A stretch of 64,000 bases of DNA from Dyadobacter luticola. Its GTDB lineage: Bacteria > Bacteroidota > Bacteroidia > Cytophagales > Spirosomataceae. Shown here in pieces: positions 41,511 through 52,199 of this stretch. The notes beneath the pieces are model-generated. The model was not told the origin of the DNA, searched no databases, and worked only from the letters and a program-made list of their open reading frames with translations. The translations under genes and the position numbers were made by a program. Location: assembly GCF_005860805.1 (NCBI RefSeq), contig NZ_VCEJ01000002.1, forward strand, positions 2,340,375-2,404,374, in the 5' to 3' direction. How positions within the stretch are numbered: the stretch's first letter is position 1; every line of letters starts with the position of its first letter.

Positions 41511-41573
41511 TTTTTGAATAAAGAAAACCTTACGCCGCGCTCGTGTGTTGATCTGAAAAATCATTACCCGATC

Positions 41574-42449
41574 GTGAAAAAAATACACTTCATCTTCCTC
41601 CTGCTGCTTGCCTCCTGTACTGCGAAACTTCCGCAACAATACGTTACCAAAACCCTACCCGATTCACTGCTGCCTGCCCGGCGGCACGTTGCTTTTGAAA
41701 ACGAGGTAAATTTCCGGGACCTGGGCGGCTTTAAAACAACCGAGGGACGTACATTAAAGTGGGGGAAAATTTACCGGTCGGATAATCTTTCCGAATTGAA
41801 AACCAGCGAATTTCCCAAATTTGAAGATTTGCACATTAAAACGGTTTTCGATCTTCGGACCAACCAGGAGATTGAGGGAAAAGAAGATCATTTGCCAGCA
41901 GGCGTAACGCACCTGCACACGCCGACCGTCGCCGATGAGGCCGGGCAGATTGCCGGACTGAAAAAACGCGTCATCGATGGCGGGCTCGATGAGGCGGAGG
42001 CAAGAAAAATCACGACAGACTTTTACAAAGATGCCGTGAGCGTGAATGTGGATTCGCTGCGGGGCATTATCCACCGCATTCTGGATCAGAACGAGCCGGT
42101 TTTGTATCATTGCTCTGCCGGGAAAGATCGTACCGGCATTGTTTCCGCATTGATTTTGTCGATCCTGCACGTGGACCGCGAGACGATCATGAAGGAATAT
42201 TTAATGTCCAATTATTACCGGGCGGAGAAAAACAGCAGGACTTTGGGAAAAGCCAAAGCCGGGAAGATCATCAAGCGAAAAATGGATCTGGATGCGATAA
42301 CGGTGCTCATTACGGTGGACGAAAGTTTCATGCAGGCGGTGTTCGATACCATCGACCAGCGCTATGGCGGGATGGACAATTTTATCAAAAATCAGCTGGG
42401 TTATGACGCTACTGCACGGAGCGAATTAGTTTTGAAATATACCGACTAG
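41574..42449 (+). CDS. Tyrosine/serine phosphatase lipoprotein (Y_phosphatase3 family)
   Basis: 291 aa from the GTG at 41574, which gives a clean lipoprotein signal (VKKIHFIFLLLLASC); the TTG at 41514 gives no signal. Family motifs: NFRDLGGFKTTEGRTLKWGKIYRSDNL and the P-loop HCSAGKDRTG with catalytic Cys180 and its Arg six residues later, then the general-acid region and ESFMQAVFDTIDQRYGGMDNF near the end. These are protein-tyrosine-phosphatase-like enzymes of the SidF/LipA type. Lipidation implies action in the periplasm on phosphorylated proteins or phosphoinositol-like molecules (inference). Proximity to the TPR kinase gene may be coincidental. Confidence 0.9.
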   Translation: MKKIHFIFLLLLASCTAKLPQQYVTKTLPDSLLPARRHVAFENEVNFRDLGGFKTTEGRTLKWGKIYRSDNLSELKTSEFPKFEDLHIKTVFDLRTNQEIEGKEDHLPAGVTHLHTPTVADEAGQIAGLKKRVIDGGLDEAEARKITTDFYKDAVSVNVDSLRGIIHRILDQNEPVLYHCSAGKDRTGIVSALILSILHVDRETIMKEYLMSNYYRAEKNSRTLGKAKAGKIIKRKMDLDAITVLITVDESFMQAVFDTIDQRYGGMDNFIKNQLGYDATARSELVLKYTD

Positions 42450-42517
42450 TCATTATCCTATTTTGCTCCAATTTTACCGGTGGCTTACTGGCATCTGCCG
42501 ATAGTTAAATGGAATGC

Positions 42518-42565
42518 AATGCTTAATCCGATTATGTTTTAATTCGGATTAAGCATTTGTTTTTA
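42518..42565 (+). terminator. Terminator after the phosphatase gene
   Basis: Perfect 14-bp arms, 42518-42531 and 42544-42557 (AATGCTTAATCCGA and its complement), with a 12-nt loop and a following TGTTTTTATG. It lies 68 bases past the phosphatase stop. Confidence 0.75.
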
Positions 42566-42601
42566 TGATAACCCACCTTAAACCATCATTGCAGACATTT
42601 T

Positions 42602-42976
42602 ATGAACTGGAACCTCCAACAACAGAGACAGAAAGCATTTTGCGAAGCCATGAGCAGTGAATTTTATGCAGTTGCGCCTGACCAGAAAGTCGGGATATCG
42701 CGGAACATCCTGGAAGCAGCGCTTCCGATTTACGGTCTGCGGATCGCGCCGGAGGGCGACAGTAACGGCTGGTATATCTGGGCCGGCCGGGAATTAAGCC
42801 TTTTCGAAGATTTTTTCCTGCCACTCCATGTAAAGCATCTCGACGATTGGAGCCCCGACGTCGTAAAATTCCTTGCCCTCGCCCCGGGCTGGCGCTTCAT
42901 CAAAGCCGGTGATTACGAGAATGTCTGGTTTGATGAAAATCTGCTGCCTCCGGGAAATGTGGCTGACCAAGCTTAA
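42602..42976 (+). CDS. Imm33-like immunity-type protein
   Basis: 124 aa, no signal peptide. The C-terminal two thirds (NGWYIWAGRELSLFEDFFLP, then LHVKHLDDWSPDVVKFLALA and PGWRFIKAGDYENVWFDE) look like the Imm33 (DUF2185-related) domain found in polymorphic-toxin immunity proteins and also as orphan genes. No toxin gene is adjacent, so immunity function is not supported by context. It may be an orphan immunity gene or a housekeeping member. The family assignment is by pattern only. Confidence 0.7.
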   Translation: MNWNLQQQRQKAFCEAMSSEFYAVAPDQKVGISRNILEAALPIYGLRIAPEGDSNGWYIWAGRELSLFEDFFLPLHVKHLDDWSPDVVKFLALAPGWRFIKAGDYENVWFDENLLPPGNVADQA

Positions 42977-42993
42977 CACAATTTTCTTCCGCC

Positions 42994-43034
42994 AATCGCC
43001 TGGCGGTATCTGTCAGGCGATTGATCCTTTTTTT
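42994..43034 (+). terminator. Terminator between the Imm33-like gene and the tri-cysteine leader operon
   Basis: AATCGCCTG (42994-43002) pairs with CAGGCGATT (43014-43022); GATCC and a run of seven T follow. Confidence 0.85.
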
Positions 43035-43063
43035 ACATTTTCAAAAAAATAAATCTGCCTCGC

Positions 43064-43112
43064 TTGGTAATCTCAAATCCTTAAACTTACTTTGTCTATA
43101 TAATTGATAGAC
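43064..43112 (+). promoter_or_regulatory. Promoter of the leader-peptide/desaturase/SusCD operon with inverted repeat at the start site
   Basis: TTG at 43064-43066, a 20-nt spacer and TTACTTTG at 43087-43094 (one mismatch to TAnnTTTG) make a good Bacteroidota promoter. GTCTAT (43094-43099) and ATAGAC (43107-43112) form an inverted repeat that covers the expected start site, a plausible operator. The leader then runs about 60 nt to the tri-cysteine ORF and contains a 9-codon ATG-to-TAA mini-ORF at 43113-43142. Confidence 0.55.
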
Positions 43113-43164
43113 TATGGCTTCGAACCACCCGCAGCTGTATTAAAACACAAAATCTTTCGCAGAT

Positions 43165-43299
43165 ATGAAAGCGATTATTTTACGTGACGCAAGCCTGGCT
43201 GCCCGCCCAGGCCAGGTGGTGAATCTTATGCTGCAGCACGCGGCTTCCCACATTACATTTCCGGCGACATTCCGCACCATGCAACATTGTTGTTGCTGA
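43165..43299 (+). CDS. 44-aa ORF ending Cys-Cys-Cys-stop, candidate cysteine-sensing leader peptide
   Basis: ATG to TGA, too short for most ORF callers. It begins MKAIILRDASLAARPG and ends ATFRTMQHCCC with codons TGT-TGT-TGC-TGA (43288-43299). The Cys codons lie inside a small hairpin: GCAAC (43281-43285) pairs with GTTGC (43292-43296). It has a promoter upstream and four genes downstream in the same direction. Poly-Cys ORFs at operon starts are known in mycobacteria, where ribosome pausing at Cys codons under cysteine limitation regulates downstream genes. The design here is comparable (inference). It is not a signal peptide and has no other family that I recognise. It could instead be a short metal-binding or modified peptide. 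Confidence 0.55.
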   Translation: MKAIILRDASLAARPGQVVNLMLQHAASHITFPATFRTMQHCCC

Positions 43300-43352
43300 C
43301 CCCGCATTCCTGCGCATCTTTTATTTTTCAGTAATTCAATTTCCAATTTATC

Positions 43353-43472
43353 ATGACACAGGCCGACGTAGTCCTGCTGGCTAAAAAAATAGCCGTGGGA
43401 ATATTCCTGACCATTGTGCCCTTTCTGCTGATTGTCGGCGGAATCTGGCTCGCGTATACACTGATCAGTTAG
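43353..43472 (+). CDS. 39-aa single-helix membrane peptide
   Basis: ATG to TAG. A short polar start with two lysines (MTQADVVLLAKKIAVG) leads into one long hydrophobic helix (IFLTIVPFLLIVGGIWLAYT). It lies 53 bases after the tri-cysteine ORF and 30 bases before the desaturase-family gene, all on the same strand. Size and position suggest a small partner subunit of the membrane enzyme encoded next, as seen for other membrane-enzyme microproteins (inference). No family recognised. Confidence 0.55.
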   Translation: MTQADVVLLAKKIAVGIFLTIVPFLLIVGGIWLAYTLIS

Positions 43473-43502
43473 CGTATCATTTCACTTTTTACCATTATCA
43501 CA

Positions 43503-44576
43503 ATGAAAATCGAAAAAGAAATCCCGCAGCAAATCAAACGGGATGCCGTCATCAGTGTGCTTCTGTATGTCGCACCGATCGTATTGATGTTTGCCTTCTT
43601 TTATTTTACGGGCCAAAAGCCCTGGCAGGGAAGCAGTGGGCTGCCTTTCAAAGTGCCGCAATTTTTGGAAGCGATTTTTAAAAACCTCAGCTCGTGGGGC
43701 TTGCCAGTCATCGTACTGGTAATCGGCGTCGTCGAATTTATCCTCGGTCTGTACGAAAACAAATGGACCAAAAATGAAAGCGTGCTCGACATTGTTTGCT
43801 TTGTGATTCCCAAAATCGTTGTGAAGCCCGTGGTAACCTATTATAGCTTGCAGCTGCTCCCACAAATTTTGCCTGCTGCCAAAGATGTATTTTCCTGGGT
43901 CCCTTTCTGGTGGGCTTTCGCGATTATCGCCGTCGCCGACGACCTGACGCAGTACTGGTACCACCGCCTGCACCACCAGCTCCCCTGGTTATGGCGTTTT
44001 CACCGCACCCACCACAGCGCGCCGTACATGGGAATGGCGATGGCGAGCCGCCAGAATATCATTTATACCATCTTTTTCTCGCAAACTTACCTTACCGCGG
44101 CATTGACGTATGTTGGCCTGGGTTATGCGGCACTTTTTGTTAAAGTGATCAAATCGCTCATTACCACAGGCGCACATTCGAGCATTCCCTGGGACAAGCC
44201 TTTTTACGAAATCAAGTGGCTCAACCCGATCGGCTGGGTACTGGAACGGCTGATCTCGACCCCTGCCACGCACCATGCGCACCATGCCGATTCGAATGAT
44301 GACGGCATCGGACATTACAAAGGAAATTTTGGTAACATGTTCTTTATCTGGGACATTATCTTCGGCACCGGCATCATTACAAGGAAATATCCTTCGGCGT
44401 ACGGTATCAAACATTATCAGGAAGAAGAATGGTACGCGCAGTTTTTGTGGCCGATTCTTAAATCCAAAAAAGAAGGCAGCGAGCTCTCCGCAGGCGGCCC
44501 CATGGTAGGCGACGAAGTAGCCCCAAAAGAAATTGTTATCGAGCCGATCGGGCTGGAAGCACGCGTCGCGAGTTAG
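43503..44576 (+). CDS. Sterol desaturase / fatty acid hydroxylase family membrane di-iron enzyme
   Basis: 357 aa, four to five TM helices (AVISVLLYVAPIVLMFAFFYF; WGLPVIVLVIGVVEFILGLY; WVPFWWAFAIIAVADDL). The three His clusters that bind the di-iron centre are intact: WYHRLHH, RFHRTHHS and THHAHHAD (HX3HH, HX2HH and HX2HH). Members hydroxylate or desaturate sterols, carotenoids, sphingolipid-type bases or alkylglycerols. In Cytophagales, which contain sphingo- and sulfonolipids, a lipid substrate is likely but not shown. It sits 30 bases after the 39-aa membrane peptide and 27 bases before SusC, in one apparent operon, an unusual combination for a SusCD locus. Confidence 0.92.
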   Translation: MKIEKEIPQQIKRDAVISVLLYVAPIVLMFAFFYFTGQKPWQGSSGLPFKVPQFLEAIFKNLSSWGLPVIVLVIGVVEFILGLYENKWTKNESVLDIVCFVIPKIVVKPVVTYYSLQLLPQILPAAKDVFSWVPFWWAFAIIAVADDLTQYWYHRLHHQLPWLWRFHRTHHSAPYMGMAMASRQNIIYTIFFSQTYLTAALTYVGLGYAALFVKVIKSLITTGAHSSIPWDKPFYEIKWLNPIGWVLERLISTPATHHAHHADSNDDGIGHYKGNFGNMFFIWDIIFGTGIITRKYPSAYGIKHYQEEEWYAQFLWPILKSKKEGSELSAGGPMVGDEVAPKEIVIEPIGLEARVAS

Positions 44577-44603
44577 TTTATTTTACCAATTTTTTACAAT
44601 CTG

Positions 44604-47600
44604 ATGGACAAGAAAAAATTTTACCTCCTCCTATGGCTGGTGGTGCTGACTTCTGTTGCCAGCCATGCCCAGGACGTTATTTCGGGCATTGTCAAAGACG
44701 AATCGGGCCAGGGATTGCCGGGTGCGACAGTCGTTGAAAAAGGGACTACCAGGTATACGCTGACGGACATTGACGGAAAATTCAGCATTCCCGCTGCTAA
44801 AACATTCCCTTTTACGCTGCAAATCAACATTACCGGTTTTCAGCAGCAGGAAATTGAGATTTACGAATTGACTACCGAGGCCGTGGAGATTGCCCTCAAA
44901 ACAGCCAATGTGCTCGATGAGGTGGTGGTGATCGGTTATGGCGAACAAAAGCGGAAAGACATTACCGGCTCGGTGGCTTCGGTGCCGATCGAGATCAAAA
45001 GCCAGCCGGTAGCTTCTGTGGAGCGCCTTCTGCAAGGTTCGGTGGCCGGAGCGGTGGTGACGCAAACCTCCGGCCAGCCGGGCGGGGGCGTCAGCGTGCA
45101 GATCCGGGGTAACAATTCCATCACCGCCGGCAGTGACCCGCTTTACGTAATCGACGGTTTCCCGATCAACAACGATTATTCCCTGGCCGATGCAGGCGTA
45201 ACCGACGGTTCGAAAATCAACCCGCTGTCAACATTGAATACCGCTGACATTGAGAACATTGACGTACTGAAAGATGCGTCGGCGACGGCGATCTACGGTT
45301 CGCGCGGGGCAAATGGTGTGGTGATTATCACAACCAAAACCGGGTCGAAAAACAAATCGTCGATCAACTACGACGCTTTTTACGGAAGCCAGCAGGTGAT
45401 CCGCACAATTCCTTTGCTCAATGCCGGACAATGGTGGGCGCTCCGGAAAGATGCGGCTGCCAACTCCGGAAAAACGGCTTCCATCCCGATTGTGACCGGT
45501 TATTCGCTGGATACGACCGGCGCAGGTACCGACTGGCAGGATGCTGCATTCCGGCGGGCTTCCATGCAAAGTCACAACTTGTCGATCCTTTCCGGATCAG
45601 ACAAAACCAAGCTGGCGGTTTCGGGTAACTATTTCAAACAGAATGGTATACTTCAAAATACGGATTTCAGAAGGCTTTCGGCCCGGGTGAATGTGGATCA
45701 CCAGTACAATGATCGCTTCCGGATTATGGCCAATCTCAATGCGAGCAATATCAAAGCGAATGTGGCTCCCGCGGCGATCGTCGGTAACCTGCTGCAAACG
45801 CCGCCTGCCCTGCCGATTTATCAGGATAACGGCACATTTGTGATCAACAGCCCGTTTGAGTCGGCCCTTCAAAACCCAATCAATTCGCTTAATAATCAAC
45901 TGAATGAGACGATTACTAACCGTTTTCTTGGCAACATTTCGGGAGAATATACGATTATCGACGGTCTGAAAGCGAAAGTGCTGATCGGCGCCGACGTGGT
46001 GGGTAACAAGCAAAACCGCTACCTGCCAAGTACTACGGCAGAGGGTCAGGCGCTCAGCGGCGACGCAATCGTAGGTTCGGTTTTCACGACTAACTGGCTG
46101 AACGAAAACACATTGAGTTACGACAAAGATCTTAATGAGAAAAACCGGGTGAATGCGGTAGTGGGTTTTACAGCCCAGACTTCTAAATCCAAAAGTACGG
46201 TGGCAGAAGCCGCGGGTTTTGCGACGGATGCATTTTCTTATAACAACCTCGCGACAGGTATCACCAGCATAGCTCCCCGCTCGGCAGCCAGCGAATGGTC
46301 TCTGGCTTCCTATCTCGGCCGGATCAATTACGCTTACGATGACCGCTACCTGCTCACATTCACCTTGCGTGCCGACGGCTCATCGCGCTTCGGGAACGGA
46401 AACAAGTGGGGATACTTTCCGTCGGCGGCTTTAGGGTGGAATTTGAATGAAGAGAAATTTTTTCAGCAGTTTAAAAAAATCAGTCTTCTGAAACTGCGTG
46501 TGAGCGCCGGAACCACTGGTAACCAGAGCATTCCGCCTTACCAGTCACTTTCGCAGCTGGCTTATTTCCGGTACAATTTCTCCAACACGACTGTATCTGG
46601 TTATGCCCCGAATACAGTCCCAAACCCGAACCTTGGCTGGGAAAAAACATTCCAGGTAGATGCAGGTTTTGACCTAGGTCTTTTCAAAAATCGCCTCAAC
46701 ATTATTGTTGATTATTACCATAAAAACACCACTGATTTGCTCCTGAGCAGAACAGTGGCAGGTACTTCGGGACTTTCGGATTTTTACAACGGACAGGCTT
46801 CGACGATTTACCAGAACATCGGACAGGTGAGCAATCAGGGGATCGAGCTATACGTGAATTCTCAAAATACGACGGGTGCATTCAAATGGAACACGGTCCT
46901 GATTTTTGCTAAAAACAAAAACAAAATCCTGGATCTGGGCGAGGGCGTAAGCCAGATTATCCCCAACATTACCAACCCGTCCATCGCCAAGGTAGGTTAC
47001 CCGCTGGGATCATTTATTGTGTATAAAACCGACGGCATCATACAGCAGGGCGACGCGCCGCTGACGCCGCAGCAAAACAAAAGTCCGGGCGGCCAGAAAT
47101 ACAAAGATCTTAATGGCGACGGCGTGATTACCCAGACCGGTGACCGCTATGTGATTGCAAACCAACCCGGGTTTACAACTGGTTTGACCAACACATTCAG
47201 CTACAAGGGGTTTGATCTAACGGTTTTTTTGCAGGCGTCGATCGGCGGAAAGTTGTATAACCAAAACCGCGCAAACCTTGAACTGGGAACCGGCTATGTG
47301 AATGCCTCGACGGTCATGCTGGATCGCTGGACGCCGACGCATACGGATACCGACGTGAAAGCAGCCTTCCAGGATCCTGCCATCACGCCATCCGACCGCT
47401 TCATCGAGGATGCCACTTACGGTCGTTTGAAAAACCTGTCGCTGGGGTACAGCCTGCCGAAAAGCCTTCTTTCCCGGGTAGGCATCGAAAACCTGCGGGT
47501 GTATGTATCTGCACAAAATGCGATCACATGGACCAAATACAGCGGATATGATCCTGAGGTGAGTTTAAACGGCCAGTCCCTGATCACCAAAGGGGTTGAC

Positions 47601-47657
47601 TCCGGTGTGTACCCAAACAACAAGTCGTACCAGGTAGGTTTGTCGCTCTCTTTCTGA
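44604..47657 (+). CDS. SusC/RagA-family TonB-linked outer-membrane transporter
   Basis: 1017 aa. Signal peptide (LTSVASHAQ), carboxypeptidase-regulatory-like domain at about 24-105 (DVISGIVKDESGQGLPGATVVE), plug (DEVVVIGYGEQKRKDITGSV; GVSVQIRGNNSITAG; ENIDVLKDASATAIYGSRGANG) and a barrel ending YQVGLSLSF. It follows the desaturase-family gene by 27 bases and precedes SusD by 41. Because the unit starts with a tri-cysteine ORF rather than an HTCS or anti-sigma pair, its ligand may be a sulfur-containing molecule rather than a glycan (inference). Confidence 0.95.
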   Translation: MDKKKFYLLLWLVVLTSVASHAQDVISGIVKDESGQGLPGATVVEKGTTRYTLTDIDGKFSIPAAKTFPFTLQINITGFQQQEIEIYELTTEAVEIALKTANVLDEVVVIGYGEQKRKDITGSVASVPIEIKSQPVASVERLLQGSVAGAVVTQTSGQPGGGVSVQIRGNNSITAGSDPLYVIDGFPINNDYSLADAGVTDGSKINPLSTLNTADIENIDVLKDASATAIYGSRGANGVVIITTKTGSKNKSSINYDAFYGSQQVIRTIPLLNAGQWWALRKDAAANSGKTASIPIVTGYSLDTTGAGTDWQDAAFRRASMQSHNLSILSGSDKTKLAVSGNYFKQNGILQNTDFRRLSARVNVDHQYNDRFRIMANLNASNIKANVAPAAIVGNLLQTPPALPIYQDNGTFVINSPFESALQNPINSLNNQLNETITNRFLGNISGEYTIIDGLKAKVLIGADVVGNKQNRYLPSTTAEGQALSGDAIVGSVFTTNWLNENTLSYDKDLNEKNRVNAVVGFTAQTSKSKSTVAEAAGFATDAFSYNNLATGITSIAPRSAASEWSLASYLGRINYAYDDRYLLTFTLRADGSSRFGNGNKWGYFPSAALGWNLNEEKFFQQFKKISLLKLRVSAGTTGNQSIPPYQSLSQLAYFRYNFSNTTVSGYAPNTVPNPNLGWEKTFQVDAGFDLGLFKNRLNIIVDYYHKNTTDLLLSRTVAGTSGLSDFYNGQASTIYQNIGQVSNQGIELYVNSQNTTGAFKWNTVLIFAKNKNKILDLGEGVSQIIPNITNPSIAKVGYPLGSFIVYKTDGIIQQGDAPLTPQQNKSPGGQKYKDLNGDGVITQTGDRYVIANQPGFTTGLTNTFSYKGFDLTVFLQASIGGKLYNQNRANLELGTGYVNASTVMLDRWTPTHTDTDVKAAFQDPAITPSDRFIEDATYGRLKNLSLGYSLPKSLLSRVGIENLRVYVSAQNAITWTKYSGYDPEVSLNGQSLITKGVDSGVYPNNKSYQVGLSLSF

Positions 47658-47698
47658 GGCGCTACCAGCACATGTTTAAATGATTAATCGAGAAAAAA

Positions 47699-49267
47699 AT
47701 GAAAAAGTCTACATATATCCTGCTGGCAATGATGGCGACCGGCCTCAGTTCGTGCAGCGAATTTTTGAAAGAAGAACCTGAATCTTTTCTTTCGGAAGAC
47801 CAGTTTTACAAGACACAAACCGACGCGATAAATGCCGTGAATGCGGTGTACTTTTTCCTGAATTCGGGCGGAAGCAACATTCAGACGCCTTATAATACCC
47901 TTTTCAACACCGGCATGAACATGGCCGGCGACGATGAAGATCCGGGACCGGGCGCTACCAATGCGGATGTGCGCTCACTTTCGGTGCTGGCACATTCGTC
48001 GGGCAACCTGCGGATCTATGAAATCTGGCAGCAGCATTATGCGGCGATCAAGAAAGCCAATGTCGCGCTGGAAAAAATCCCGGAGATCCAGTTCGACGAA
48101 GCGCTTAAAGCACGCCTGATCGGCGAAGCGAAGTTTTTGCGCGCGCTTTATTACTTCAACCTGGTGCGTTTATACGGCGATGTTCCGCTGGTGACCGGGT
48201 ACCAGAAAGATGTGAATGCAGCCAGTTATGAAATCGCCAAATCGCCTTCGACCGAGGTGTATGCACAGATCGAGAAGGATTTGAAGGAAGCGGCGGCAGC
48301 ATTGCCGGCAAGTTACGCCTCTCCCAACGTCGGCCGGGCAACTGCCGGGGCGGCCAAGTCGCTGCTGGCAAAAGTGTACTTGACGAAAGCTTCCCAGCCT
48401 TTGAATATCACCGCACATTACAAAGATGCAATTTCTACTGCCGAGGAGGCGCTTTCACCTGCTGACGGTGGTACCGGAACCTACAATTATGACCTGGTGA
48501 CCAACTATGCGGAAGTCTTTTTACCTGCATTTAAAAACAATAAGGAGCATATTTTTTCTGCGCAGTTCAAGTCCAATTCCCTCAACCAGGGGAATGCGGA
48601 ATATCCGCGCGCAATCCTTTCCGGAATTCCGGGTCTGACAGGAAACTATGCGCACATGGTGCGGTTCTACACCGTTGGAAATGATAAGTTTTTCAGCATT
48701 TACAAACTTTTCAAACCGGGAGACAAGCGGCGTGACGTGACTTTTGTACGCAGCTTTACAAGTCCTTCAAACGGAAAAAAATACGCGCTGCCGATTACAA
48801 ATACGTCGATCGCCGGCGACTCGACACCCTTTTGGAATAAGTGGCTCGACCCGGCCTCTGCAGCGGTAACCAACCAGTCGGCGGCCAATGTTCCAATCCT
48901 GCGGTATGCCGATTTATTGCTGATCCACGCGGAGGCTGAGAATGAAGCAAACGGTCCGACCGTGAAAGCGTACAAATCTTTAAACCGTGTGCGCAACCGG
49001 GCCGGGCTCCCGAACCTGACTGCCGGTTTGACCAAAGATCAGTTTCGTGACTCGGTGTACCTCGACCGTCGCCTGGAACTTACCTACGAGTACCAGCGCT
49101 GGTTTGACCTGATCCGCCAGAAGGATGCGGCGGGAAAATCGACTTTTGTGGCGAACCTGCAAAAGGTGGGAAAAACGAATGCAGCCGAGAAGCACAGGCT
49201 GTACCCAATCCCCCAATCGGAAATCGATAACAACAAGCTGTTGAAACAAAATCCCGGTTTTGAGTGA
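47699..49267 (+). CDS. SusD/RagB-family outer-membrane lipoprotein
   Basis: 522 aa. Lipoprotein signal (MATGLSSC, lipid Cys about 19), then the classical RagB N-terminus (SEFLKEEPESFLSEDQFYKT) and TPR-like helices with the strong motif EAKFLRALYYFNLVRLYGDVP. The C-terminal SusD domain has RYADLLLIHAEAENEANG, LNRVRNRAGLP, RRLELTYEYQRWFDLIR and the closing RLYPIPQSEIDNN. It is the partner of the SusC before it and the last gene of the unit; the terminator at 49416 follows. Confidence 0.95.
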   Translation: MKKSTYILLAMMATGLSSCSEFLKEEPESFLSEDQFYKTQTDAINAVNAVYFFLNSGGSNIQTPYNTLFNTGMNMAGDDEDPGPGATNADVRSLSVLAHSSGNLRIYEIWQQHYAAIKKANVALEKIPEIQFDEALKARLIGEAKFLRALYYFNLVRLYGDVPLVTGYQKDVNAASYEIAKSPSTEVYAQIEKDLKEAAAALPASYASPNVGRATAGAAKSLLAKVYLTKASQPLNITAHYKDAISTAEEALSPADGGTGTYNYDLVTNYAEVFLPAFKNNKEHIFSAQFKSNSLNQGNAEYPRAILSGIPGLTGNYAHMVRFYTVGNDKFFSIYKLFKPGDKRRDVTFVRSFTSPSNGKKYALPITNTSIAGDSTPFWNKWLDPASAAVTNQSAANVPILRYADLLLIHAEAENEANGPTVKAYKSLNRVRNRAGLPNLTAGLTKDQFRDSVYLDRRLELTYEYQRWFDLIRQKDAAGKSTFVANLQKVGKTNAAEKHRLYPIPQSEIDNNKLLKQNPGFE

Positions 49268-49415: not shown

Positions 49416-49446
49416 AGGTCAGCTCTTCGGGGCTGGCCTTTTTTGT
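49416..49446 (+). terminator. Terminator downstream of SusD
   Basis: AGGTCAGC and GCTGGCCT form an 8-bp stem with one G-T pair around TCTTCGGG, followed by a T tract. Confidence 0.75.
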
Positions 49447-50763: not shown

Positions 50764-52074
50764 ATGCAGCTGATTCCTAATTACAAAAGCTTCGATCCAT
50801 CGGTACTTTCGAGAAAAAACTTCTTGTCGATGACCTCCAAATATGTGGCCGCGGGCGCTATCGCCAGTGCCTTGTCGGGCAAACCGGAAAATGCCAGCGC
50901 GCAGGAATCGCCCGCCAGCATTCCCGAAGGTGTGGAAGATCCGATCGTGCTCGAACAGTGGAAATCGAAATACGACCAGGATACCGGCCCGGTACCGACG
51001 CCTCTCCCACCCGACCGGCGAATTGGTTATGCCGTGGTTGGTTTGGGCCATTTGTCCCTGGAGCAGATACTTCCTGCATTGAGCAGCTGCAAAAAGTCAA
51101 AACTGACGGCGCTCGTGAGCGGTAGTCCTGATAAAATGAAAAAGGTAGCGGCGCAGTACGGTGTAAAACCGGCTAATTGCTATTCCTATCAAACGTATGA
51201 TCAGCTGAAAAATAACAAGGAAGTGGACGTGATCTACATTGTGCTGCCCAACTCGATGCACAAGGAATTTACCGTCCGTGGCGCGGCTGCCGGGAAACAT
51301 ATTCTCTGCGAAAAACCGATGGCGGTGAGCCAGCAGGAATGTCGCGAGATGATCGCCGCCTGTAAAAAAGCAAATGTGAAGCTGATGGTCGCTTACCGGA
51401 TCCAGTACCAGCCGCACAACCGCACGCTCCGTGATATTCTGAAAAAAGGCGAGTTCGGCAATGCCAAATTTGTGGATGCTTCCAACTGCCAGAGCAGCGC
51501 CAACCCGGAACACTGGCGGCATAAAAAAGCGTTGGCTGGTGGTGGCGCATTACCCGATATCGGACTGTACTGCCTCAACACCACCCGATTTGTGCTCGGC
51601 GAAGAACCGACGGAAGTGTTTGCATACCAGTACAGTACACCGGGAGATCCTTTGTTTAAAGAAGTGGAAGAGCTGATGTCGTGGCAAATGAAATTTCCTT
51701 CCGGCATCATTGCCAGCTGCTCCACACATTATCACGTCCACGAAAGCCGGTATTACAGGGTTTTATGTGAAAAAGGCTGGCTGCACATGGACAAGGCCTA
51801 TGCCTACAAAGGTCAGCAACTTTCCACCGCCCGCGCCGAGGGCATGCAGGAGCTGCACCAGCAAATCGGACTGGCAGAAAAAGATCAGTTCGCCCTGGAA
51901 ATGGATCATTTTTCAGGGTGTATCATTGAAAATAAGCCGCCTTACACGCCGGGCGAAGAAGGTTTGCAGGACCAGATCCTGATGGAAGCGATTTATCAGT
52001 CGGCGAAAGAAGGAAAGCCGGTAAAAATAGCGGCCAGCACAGAAATCCCGCGCGGCCCGGAGCCGAAATCATAG
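50764..52074 (+). CDS. Gfo/Idh/MocA-family NAD(P)-dependent oxidoreductase
   Basis: 436 aa. An N-terminal extension with a hydrophobic signal-like segment (SMTSKYVAAGAIASALSG), as in periplasmic glucose-fructose-oxidoreductase-like enzymes, precedes the Rossmann domain (IGYAVVGLGHLSLEQILPAL). It continues with DVIYIVLPNSMHKEF and the conserved EKPM (HILCEKPMAVSQQE), whose Lys is catalytic. The C-terminal domain has GGALPDIGLYCLNTTRFVLG with the family D-x-G-x-Y. Such enzymes oxidise or reduce sugars or inositols with tightly bound NADP. It is transcribed alone. The extra N-terminus suggests export, possibly by Tat given the bound cofactor, although a twin Arg is not obvious. Confidence 0.9.
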   Translation: MQLIPNYKSFDPSVLSRKNFLSMTSKYVAAGAIASALSGKPENASAQESPASIPEGVEDPIVLEQWKSKYDQDTGPVPTPLPPDRRIGYAVVGLGHLSLEQILPALSSCKKSKLTALVSGSPDKMKKVAAQYGVKPANCYSYQTYDQLKNNKEVDVIYIVLPNSMHKEFTVRGAAAGKHILCEKPMAVSQQECREMIAACKKANVKLMVAYRIQYQPHNRTLRDILKKGEFGNAKFVDASNCQSSANPEHWRHKKALAGGGALPDIGLYCLNTTRFVLGEEPTEVFAYQYSTPGDPLFKEVEELMSWQMKFPSGIIASCSTHYHVHESRYYRVLCEKGWLHMDKAYAYKGQQLSTARAEGMQELHQQIGLAEKDQFALEMDHFSGCIIENKPPYTPGEEGLQDQILMEAIYQSAKEGKPVKIAASTEIPRGPEPKS

Positions 52075-52082
52075 GGAACCCG

Positions 52083-52129
52083 ATGCCAATGCCAATGCCA
52101 ATGCCAATGCCAATGCCAATGCCAATGCC
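52083..52129. repeat. ATGCCA hexanucleotide tandem repeat, about 7.8 copies
   Basis: Seven exact ATGCCA units followed by ATGCC, starting 8 bases after the oxidoreductase stop. It is a candidate variable-number repeat. On the minus strand it encodes Gly-Ile dipeptides only because 6 is a multiple of 3. It runs directly into the REP-like palindrome. Confidence 0.9.
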
Positions 52130-52199
52130 CGTCAGCTTAAGCTGACGGAAAATAAACATCTCTCACATACATTCCCTTGCCGCCAGCTTTAGCTGGCGG
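52129..52199. repeat. REP-like paired palindromes (BIME-type element)
   Basis: CCGTCAGCTTAAGCTGACGG (52129-52148) is a perfect 20-bp palindrome, and CCGCCAGCTTTAGCTGGCGG (52180-52199) is a near-perfect one sharing the CCGnCAGCTT core. They are separated by 31 bases. Paired, related palindromes in an intergenic gap are typical of REP/BIME elements mobilised by RAYT (REP-associated tyrosine) transposases; no such gene is in the window. Confidence 0.65.

Follow-up and report, generated by a model that had tools for sequence, protein, structure and literature searches.

A 64,000-nucleotide stretch of the Dyadobacter luticola genome (contig NZ_VCEJ01000002.1; hereafter the window) contains a unit in which a short open reading frame (ORF) ending in three cysteine codons lies upstream of genes for a small membrane peptide, a membrane hydroxylase, and a SusCD pair. 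We propose that the ORF is a cysteine-responsive leader which, together with a palindrome at the promoter, controls an operon for the scavenging of organosulfur compounds. Comparison with related loci makes this quite likely. An earlier note on this DNA described the 44-codon ORF ending TGT-TGT-TGC-TGA, its Cys codons within a hairpin, the membrane peptide, a di-iron desaturase-family enzyme, and the SusC and SusD genes. All of these are present, and all are on the + strand. In window coordinates, the features of the unit are:

43064-43095, + strand: promoter, with TTG at 43064-43066 and a -7 type element, TTACTTTG (43087-43094), or TACTTTGT if taken to 43095
43094-43112, no strand: palindrome GTCTA-TATAATTGA-TAGAC (9-nt spacer), which overlaps the promoter element
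43113-43139, + strand: hairpin P1, with arms 43113-43119 and 43133-43139 and a loop that includes L1 = AACCACC (43123-43129)
43165-43299, + strand: leader ORF of 44 amino acids, ending His-Cys-Cys-Cys and then stop
43193-43212, + strand: hairpin P3 within the leader ORF, with arms 43193-43198 and 43207-43212
43215-43220, + strand: B, GGTGGT, the complement of the P1 loop L1
43281-43296, + strand: 6-bp hairpin GCAACA-TTGT-TGTTGC, which contains the Cys codons (from the sequence and the minimum-free-energy fold of the window copy)
43288-43296, + strand: the Cys codons TGT TGT TGC, directly 5' of the TGA stop (from the sequence)
43353-43472, + strand: 39-amino-acid hydrophobic membrane peptide, the conserved partner of the hydroxylase (similar peptides are found in relatives' loci)
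43503-44576, + strand: membrane di-iron hydroxylase (PF04116, Pfam E = 1.3e-24)
44604-47657, + strand: SusC-type TonB-dependent outer membrane protein (TIGR04056, 869.6 bits)
47699-49267, + strand: SusD-type outer membrane lipoprotein (PF07980, E = 3.1e-39)

A homology search with the 44-amino-acid protein gave a single strong match, which was itself. By reading through the matches, we picked out the weakly matching loci L004 and L011, from sister species, and L006, which is linked to metY. L004 and L011 resemble the window in the promoter, in the 5' region, and over roughly the first 20 codons, but not in the tail. A DNA search with window positions 43060-43240 found copies in 37 of 48 genomes from the genus, many of them with more than one match. 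An alignment of 40 copies shows TTTGTCTAT-N-TAGA, followed in most copies by the loop AACCACC, an ATG near +74, and GGTGG near +121. The leaders include types with unrelated peptides (MKAIIL...PEPCCCC, MKSMDRYSSR...ASCCCC, and MKTNSLL...CCQPCC). We then used a sequence-only model, R1, which runs from the promoter to the middle of the ORF and was built without the Cys codons. R1 matched 38 of 200 genomes from the family; these represent 7 of 36 genera, and 32 of them are Dyadobacter. It also matched 11 of 291 genomes from the order at E up to 1e-4 (10 are Dyadobacter). The leader family is present in Dyadobacter, in some further genera of the same family, and in Chitinophagaceae.

Patterns taken from the ORF itself were less useful. 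ATGCARCAYTGYTGYTGY proved too narrow as a search pattern for the family, and we rejected it: across the order, just 3 of 390 genomes have it, and in one of the two besides the window's own it precedes metY. The window's own genome has 22 sites encoding His-Cys-Cys-Cys (CAYTGYTGYTGY), versus 7 in the control; a stop follows directly at 3 of the 22, and only the window's site has an ATG frame. L004 (the same region as L079) has a leader with NCSCC near its end, and no hydroxylase-SusCD operon lies within the 13 kb shown; it looks as if this were an orphan leader that has lost the operon behind it.

The terminal Cys codons were tested in 74 held-out loci that were not in R1. These were chosen among the listed matches, favouring those that cover much of the model, and the first ATG, taken without regard to Cys, fixed the reading frame. 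Three of the held-out loci have no promoter match and four have no ORF, which leaves 67 leaders. Cys-Cys lies within the last eight codons of 52 of these 67, compared to 0/67 and 1/67 in the other two frames. For the 59 leaders of at most 80 amino acids, shuffling the residues gives an expectation of 7.7% with Cys-Cys. Cys is the last codon of 40 of these 59 and the penultimate codon of 45; from the sixth codon before the end onward, no position has Cys in more than 6 of the 59 (first 24 positions). Leaders of differing sequence keep the same Cys tail. The earlier note had asked if the terminal Cys codons persist while the rest drifts, and mostly they do. The pattern shows that the Cys codons are under selection.

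The genes behind these leaders suggest what is being controlled. Among 20 regions of 13-20 kb, 16 have the hydroxylase as the first large gene behind the promoter. A motif marks sulfatase-like genes in 9 of these 20 regions, and inspection by eye added one more region (L087). Pfam identified PF00884 in four proteins from L075, and also confirmed SusD and a rhodanese-thioredoxin fusion in relatives' operons. A recurrent 310-amino-acid secreted protein matches a periplasmic binding protein family, below the cut-off, in two of the three cases that we tested. The relatives' sulfatases and rhodanese-thioredoxin suggest that sulfur is scavenged from organosulfur compounds, whether sulfate esters or others. 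This sulfur-supply context holds at the level of the family; it extends to the window's unit by kinship only.

To look beyond the R1 matches, we used the best 80 named loci from a genome scan with the hydroxylase alignment. These loci are from Dyadobacter, Chitinophaga, Niastella, Terrimonas, Segetibacter, Larkinella, Spirosoma, and others. In 76 of the 80, a peptide like the 39-amino-acid one, with a KKI/RKI motif, is directly upstream of the hydroxylase. Among the 18 Dyadobacter loci, 15 have a leader that ends 250-333 bases before the hydroxylase and has Cys-Cys within its final eight codons. Six loci from Chitinophagaceae/Chitinophagales (L229, L240, L249, L252, L255, and L269) have the palindrome, CC[AG]CC, and a Cys-rich leader tail. 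Cys-run leaders are also present in L241, L280, and L281, where the promoter motif is incomplete. The Chitinophagaceae leaders are unrelated in sequence, yet they end in Cys runs. A stricter Cys-run filter, applied to 1200 bases at the best 80 loci, found 24 cases on the forward strand versus 11 on the reverse strand.

Poly-Cys leaders also occur elsewhere in the phylum. A scan for five Cys codons followed by a stop had hits in 128 of 395 genomes; a control with the reversed pattern, whose codon content is not matched, gave about 25. We inspected 29 of the loci: 17 were shorter than 10 codons or lay antisense to long frames, 5 were ambiguous, and 7 were leader-like (L295, L305, L307, L310, L312, L314, and, less clearly, L302). 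The leader in L295 is upstream of cysS. In L314 (positions 1400-1622), a Cys-run leader and an intrinsic terminator, which the terminator search described below recovers, precede genes for uroporphyrinogen-III methyltransferase and a cysJ-like protein. In L006, which is from another family of the order, a SAM riboswitch (RF00162) is directly followed by a leader ending MQHCCCCCC, with six Cys codons, and then by metY (positions 1309-1572); this is possibly a case of two sulfur sensors in series. The leaders before cysS, the siroheme and sulfite reductase genes, and metY directly fit cysteine sensing. L305, L307, L310, and L312 share a leader (...MQANMRMCCCCCCC and kin, at about 1430-1520 in sense orientation) before a similar gene and a CDP-alcohol phosphatidyltransferase-like gene. 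In L312, where we ran Pfam, the similar gene belongs to the PhyH family. These four loci may have a Cys-run leader on a lipid operon.

Because the Cys codons mostly persist and the family heads sulfur-acquisition genes, the ORF is best read as a cysteine-responsive leader. This part of the earlier note's proposal is strongly supported by the comparison (the 52 of 67 leaders and the sulfur genes in relatives); its other part, on a sulfur lipid, is not, as discussed below. Comparison shows the leader, selection on its Cys codons, the RNA hairpins, and the sulfur genes that accompany relatives' leaders and lie elsewhere in the window's genome; we infer the cysteine response and its direction, as follows. 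Control would act at two levels. At the first level, a Bacteroidota-type promoter is overlapped by the palindrome, which is probably the operator of a sulfur regulator. At the second level, the 5' leader encodes a short peptide whose terminal cysteines are the most conserved residues across subfamilies. If charged tRNA-Cys is scarce, then ribosomes would slow at the Cys codons and the leader RNA would change its state (the P1 loop AACCACC can pair with GGUGGU in the ORF). The hydroxylase and SusCD would then be expressed; with ample cysteine, expression would be kept low.

Several observations weigh against this explanation. First, there is kinship among the held-out copies, which means that they cannot be counted as independent. 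Second, Cys-Cys is missing from the last eight codons of 15 of the 67 held-out leaders. Eight of these 15 have a first ATG frame of at least 120 codons, and so no short leader. A Cys pair is absent from five of the remaining misses; L187 has its pair farther from the stop, and the final residues of L150 are Cys-Arg-Ser-Cys. The earlier note had named homologous leaders without the terminal Cys as evidence against its view; such leaders do exist, as this minority, while the majority keep Cys-Cys. Third, L011, the closest leader, has one Cys only; it heads the same peptide-hydroxylase pair as in the window, and SusCD is absent there. L202, upstream of a hydroxylase-SusC unit, has no Cys pair. 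Copies before rhodanese genes have P1 and B and no clear Cys ORF, so the RNA part exists without the Cys codons. Fourth, the window's unit, with the hydroxylase and SusCD, has no sulfatase gene, and the window copy lacks P2, a long hairpin that follows the leader's stop in other copies. Fifth, none of 84 leaders is followed within 200 nt by a compact intrinsic terminator (a stem of at least 6, a loop of 3-8, and 6 of 8 T); the search did recover three positive controls. Finally, a loose Cys-run filter on the 62 non-Dyadobacter hydroxylase loci found 18 cases on the forward strand versus 21 on the reverse strand. Since this is no better than the reverse strand, we rejected the filter, and only motif-backed or individually read leaders count there.

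The leader RNA has conserved features besides the Cys codons. The stems of P1 vary in sequence and stay paired: the mean stem score is 12.35 across 108 copies, versus 6.59 (standard deviation 0.375) for shuffled flanks. Complementarity of L1 to B is higher within than between copies (0/1000 permutations), and 88 of 108 copies have a match to B. P3 is less clear. In the window, 12% of shuffles give an equally good hairpin. P3 ends 2-6 nt 5' of GGTGG in 34 of 38 copies, and only 14 of the 38 have a P3 that outscores 95% of shuffles. In 18 type-1 copies, 16 cells changed on both sides, and 0/500 shuffles reach the covariation score or the share of paired cells; double-change pairs (379/500) and further pair types (499/500) were not above shuffles. 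P2 has GGTGGTT in its loop, and this motif is present in 34 of 99 copies examined and nearly always invariant. Rfam has no family for the leader, whether for the window (at the gathering score), for nine loci (E up to 0.1), or for eight loci (at the gathering score). The only cis-regulatory matches from Rfam among the tested loci were the SAM riboswitches in L096 and L006.

How the leader would affect expression may differ between copies. The criteria for compact terminators are blind to long hairpins, so we also ran a wider search, with loops of up to 100 nt and stems of at least 7. A long hairpin with 6 of 8 T follows 11 of 84 leaders (3.67 in shuffled sequences), and with 5 of 8 T, it is 34 of 84 (9.33 when shuffled). 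The window copy is not among the 11, which do include all four Chitinophagaceae-type copies with P2. Given the T-rich sequence behind the long hairpins, P2 may be a terminator in the copies that have it. For the window, the candidates are Rho-type termination or translational control via P1 and GGUGGU. In the leaderless loci L181 and L204, GTGGTTAAC, which is complementary to the P1 loop, directly abuts the ATG of a sulfatase; this favours a role in translation initiation.

We also considered that the RNA element might be the switch and the leader ORF secondary, with a pseudoknot of AACCACC and GGUGGU near a start codon, perhaps gated by a ligand or a protein, and the Cys codons only modulating it. 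The elements before the sulfatases of L181 and L204 fit this idea, as does L095, where the start of the leader is fused to the gene for a binding-like protein; P1 and B persist there, and the Cys run is missing. In L269, a compensatory change affects the P1 loop and the P2 motif jointly (AGCCACC with GGTGGCT). Also, CC[AG]CC is present in 65 of the 67 held-out copies with ORFs, including those without a short leader, although the motif is part of the model, so this is not independent. However, such a switch leaves the retention of Cys in 52 of 67 leaders unexplained, there are few conserved nucleotides to form a ligand pocket, and Rfam has no match. We view it as possible but unlikely. A tentative proposal, less likely than not, is a new two-input RNA switch of Bacteroidota: the AACCACC loop would pair either with GGUGGU in the poly-Cys ORF or with the GGUGGUU that many copies carry in the loop of the terminator-like P2, and the position of the ribosome on the Cys codons would select the fold. 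The switch would coordinate a sulfur-scavenging regulon in at least two families, comprising SusCD, sulfatases, and the hydroxylase with its own 39-amino-acid membrane partner.

Turning to the promoter, the earlier note had reported a consensus promoter. There is a promoter element, but it does not have the sigma-70 consensus (a sigma-70 scan found nothing at 43064-43110). Instead, as the alignments indicate, it is a Bacteroidota-type element that is common to the leader family. TAC-TTTG is found in 100 of 109 aligned copies, with TTG at -27 in most; these copies were selected via TTTGTCT, so those letters are given and are not evidence. TACTTTGT fits the SM5 box, TAnnTTGY, as given in sections of a study of Flavobacterium psychrophilum (PMC9723704). 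The promoter box alone predicts a transcription start at about 43100, which the palindrome overlaps, and the leader's ATG is about 65 nt downstream of this predicted start; in leaderless mycobacterial poly-Cys ORFs, by comparison, the ORF opens at the transcript's 5' end.

The palindrome GTCTA...TAGAC, which overlaps the predicted transcription start, is probably the operator of a sulfur regulator. In the window's own genome, it occurs at 8 places with at most one mismatch, versus 1 in the control. These include the window's unit and three PF00884 sulfatases (L100, L101, and L102); in L102, the sulfatase is behind the palindrome and a second leader, which ends Arg-Cys-Cys-Cys and then stop. 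The palindrome is also found before a SusC gene (L099), a SAM riboswitch (L096), and a gene just below the PF13372 cut-off (L098), as well as before the binding-like protein gene of L095. In L095 (positions 1574-2557), the leader's first codons are joined in frame to the signal peptide of the protein; the Cys run and the stop are gone, and P1 and GGTGG are kept. A repressor or activator that acts at the palindrome alone, with no regulatory role for the leader peptide, would account for the sites in this genome that have no Cys leader (two sulfatases, the SusC gene, and the SAM riboswitch). It would not account for selection on the Cys codons, or for the Cys-run leaders that precede cysteine genes in other Bacteroidota without the window's promoter context. 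We consider it improbable.

The earlier note also guessed at a role in sulfur lipids. The idea would be that the operon makes or modifies sulfonolipids derived from cysteate. The hydroxylase does belong to a lipid-modifying superfamily, and it is weakly similar to OlsE (39.5 bits with the NCBIfam model, far below the cut-off of 475). But relatives' operons carry sulfatases, rhodanese-thioredoxin, and uptake genes, and the induction upon cysteine shortage that we propose favours scavenging. Because of the sulfatases, we set the sulfonolipid role aside as improbable. In a possible variant of the scavenging explanation, the hydroxylase would free sulfur from lipids. Lastly, the peptide is very unlikely to be a functional small protein with a Cys tail, which might bind a metal or a thiol: conservation does sit in the Cys-rich tail, but the remaining peptide varies from one subfamily or family to the next, and what stays is the tail together with the RNA motifs.

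Terminator-like hairpins lie on either side of the unit:

42993-43023: terminator-like hairpin 5' of the unit (terminator scan)
49416-49439, + strand: terminator-like hairpin closing the unit (terminator scan)

Overall, the terminator scan was at chance level (9 sites versus 9.2 in shuffles), and these two have its longest stems, with 14 and 10 pairs. The first lies between the unit and the upstream genes at 41514-42976, which are tyrosine-phosphatase-like and Imm33-like. Elsewhere in the window, a mechanically called ORF on the - strand (51923-52159) is a short-unit tandem repeat, (Gly-Ile)n, that adjoins the end of a Gfo/Idh gene.

SusCD proteins are usually read as sugar uptake systems. If the cysteine-sensing leader is real, then it marks a SusCD set that serves sulfur supply, and the palindrome, the AACCACC hairpin, and the Cys-run leader would form a signature that separates sulfur-scavenging from carbon-scavenging SusCD and sulfatase operons. 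It would also extend poly-Cys leaders to Bacteroidota, as a testable case of leader control. The RNA element deserves work of its own.

Our searches of the open-licence PMC literature turned up no Bacteroidota leader for cysteine or for sulfur scavenging. Canestrari et al. 2020, cited in PMC13236596, reportedly deals with poly-cysteine leader ORFs. Within the phylum, passages of a report on Flavobacterium psychrophilum describe leader-peptide attenuation before operons for amino acid biosynthesis (PMC9723704), which is the same general class of mechanism; those passages do not mention cysteine leaders or sulfur scavenging. Leader-like small ORFs are described, in part of another report, from Bacteroides thetaiotaomicron (PMC7366714). 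The SAM riboswitch RF00162 likewise controls sulfur genes, and one is behind a palindrome of the window's type (L096) while another precedes the Cys leader and metY in L006, but the window's leader has no match to RF00162. In Rhodobacterales, uORFC-8-2 is an upstream ORF with Cys codons before cysS and is proposed to sense charged tRNA-Cys, according to sections of PMC8632094. It shares the tandem Cys codons with the window's leader, but an intrinsic terminator, made up of a stem and a U run, closes the motif; the window's leader lacks one. Poly-Cys leader ORFs are also described before cys and cbs operons in Mycobacterium, Propionibacterium, and Bifidobacterium, in sections of PMC1262725. Like these actinobacterial leaders, the window's leader is a short ORF with a Cys run near its stop, it belongs to a family found before sulfur genes, and it has no conserved compact terminator. 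Unlike them, it is from a different phylum, its sequence is unrelated, and its ORF would start well inside the predicted transcript. Furthermore, the window's family embeds hairpins and a complement to a loop, shares a palindrome, and heads operons with SusCD, sulfatase, and hydroxylase genes.

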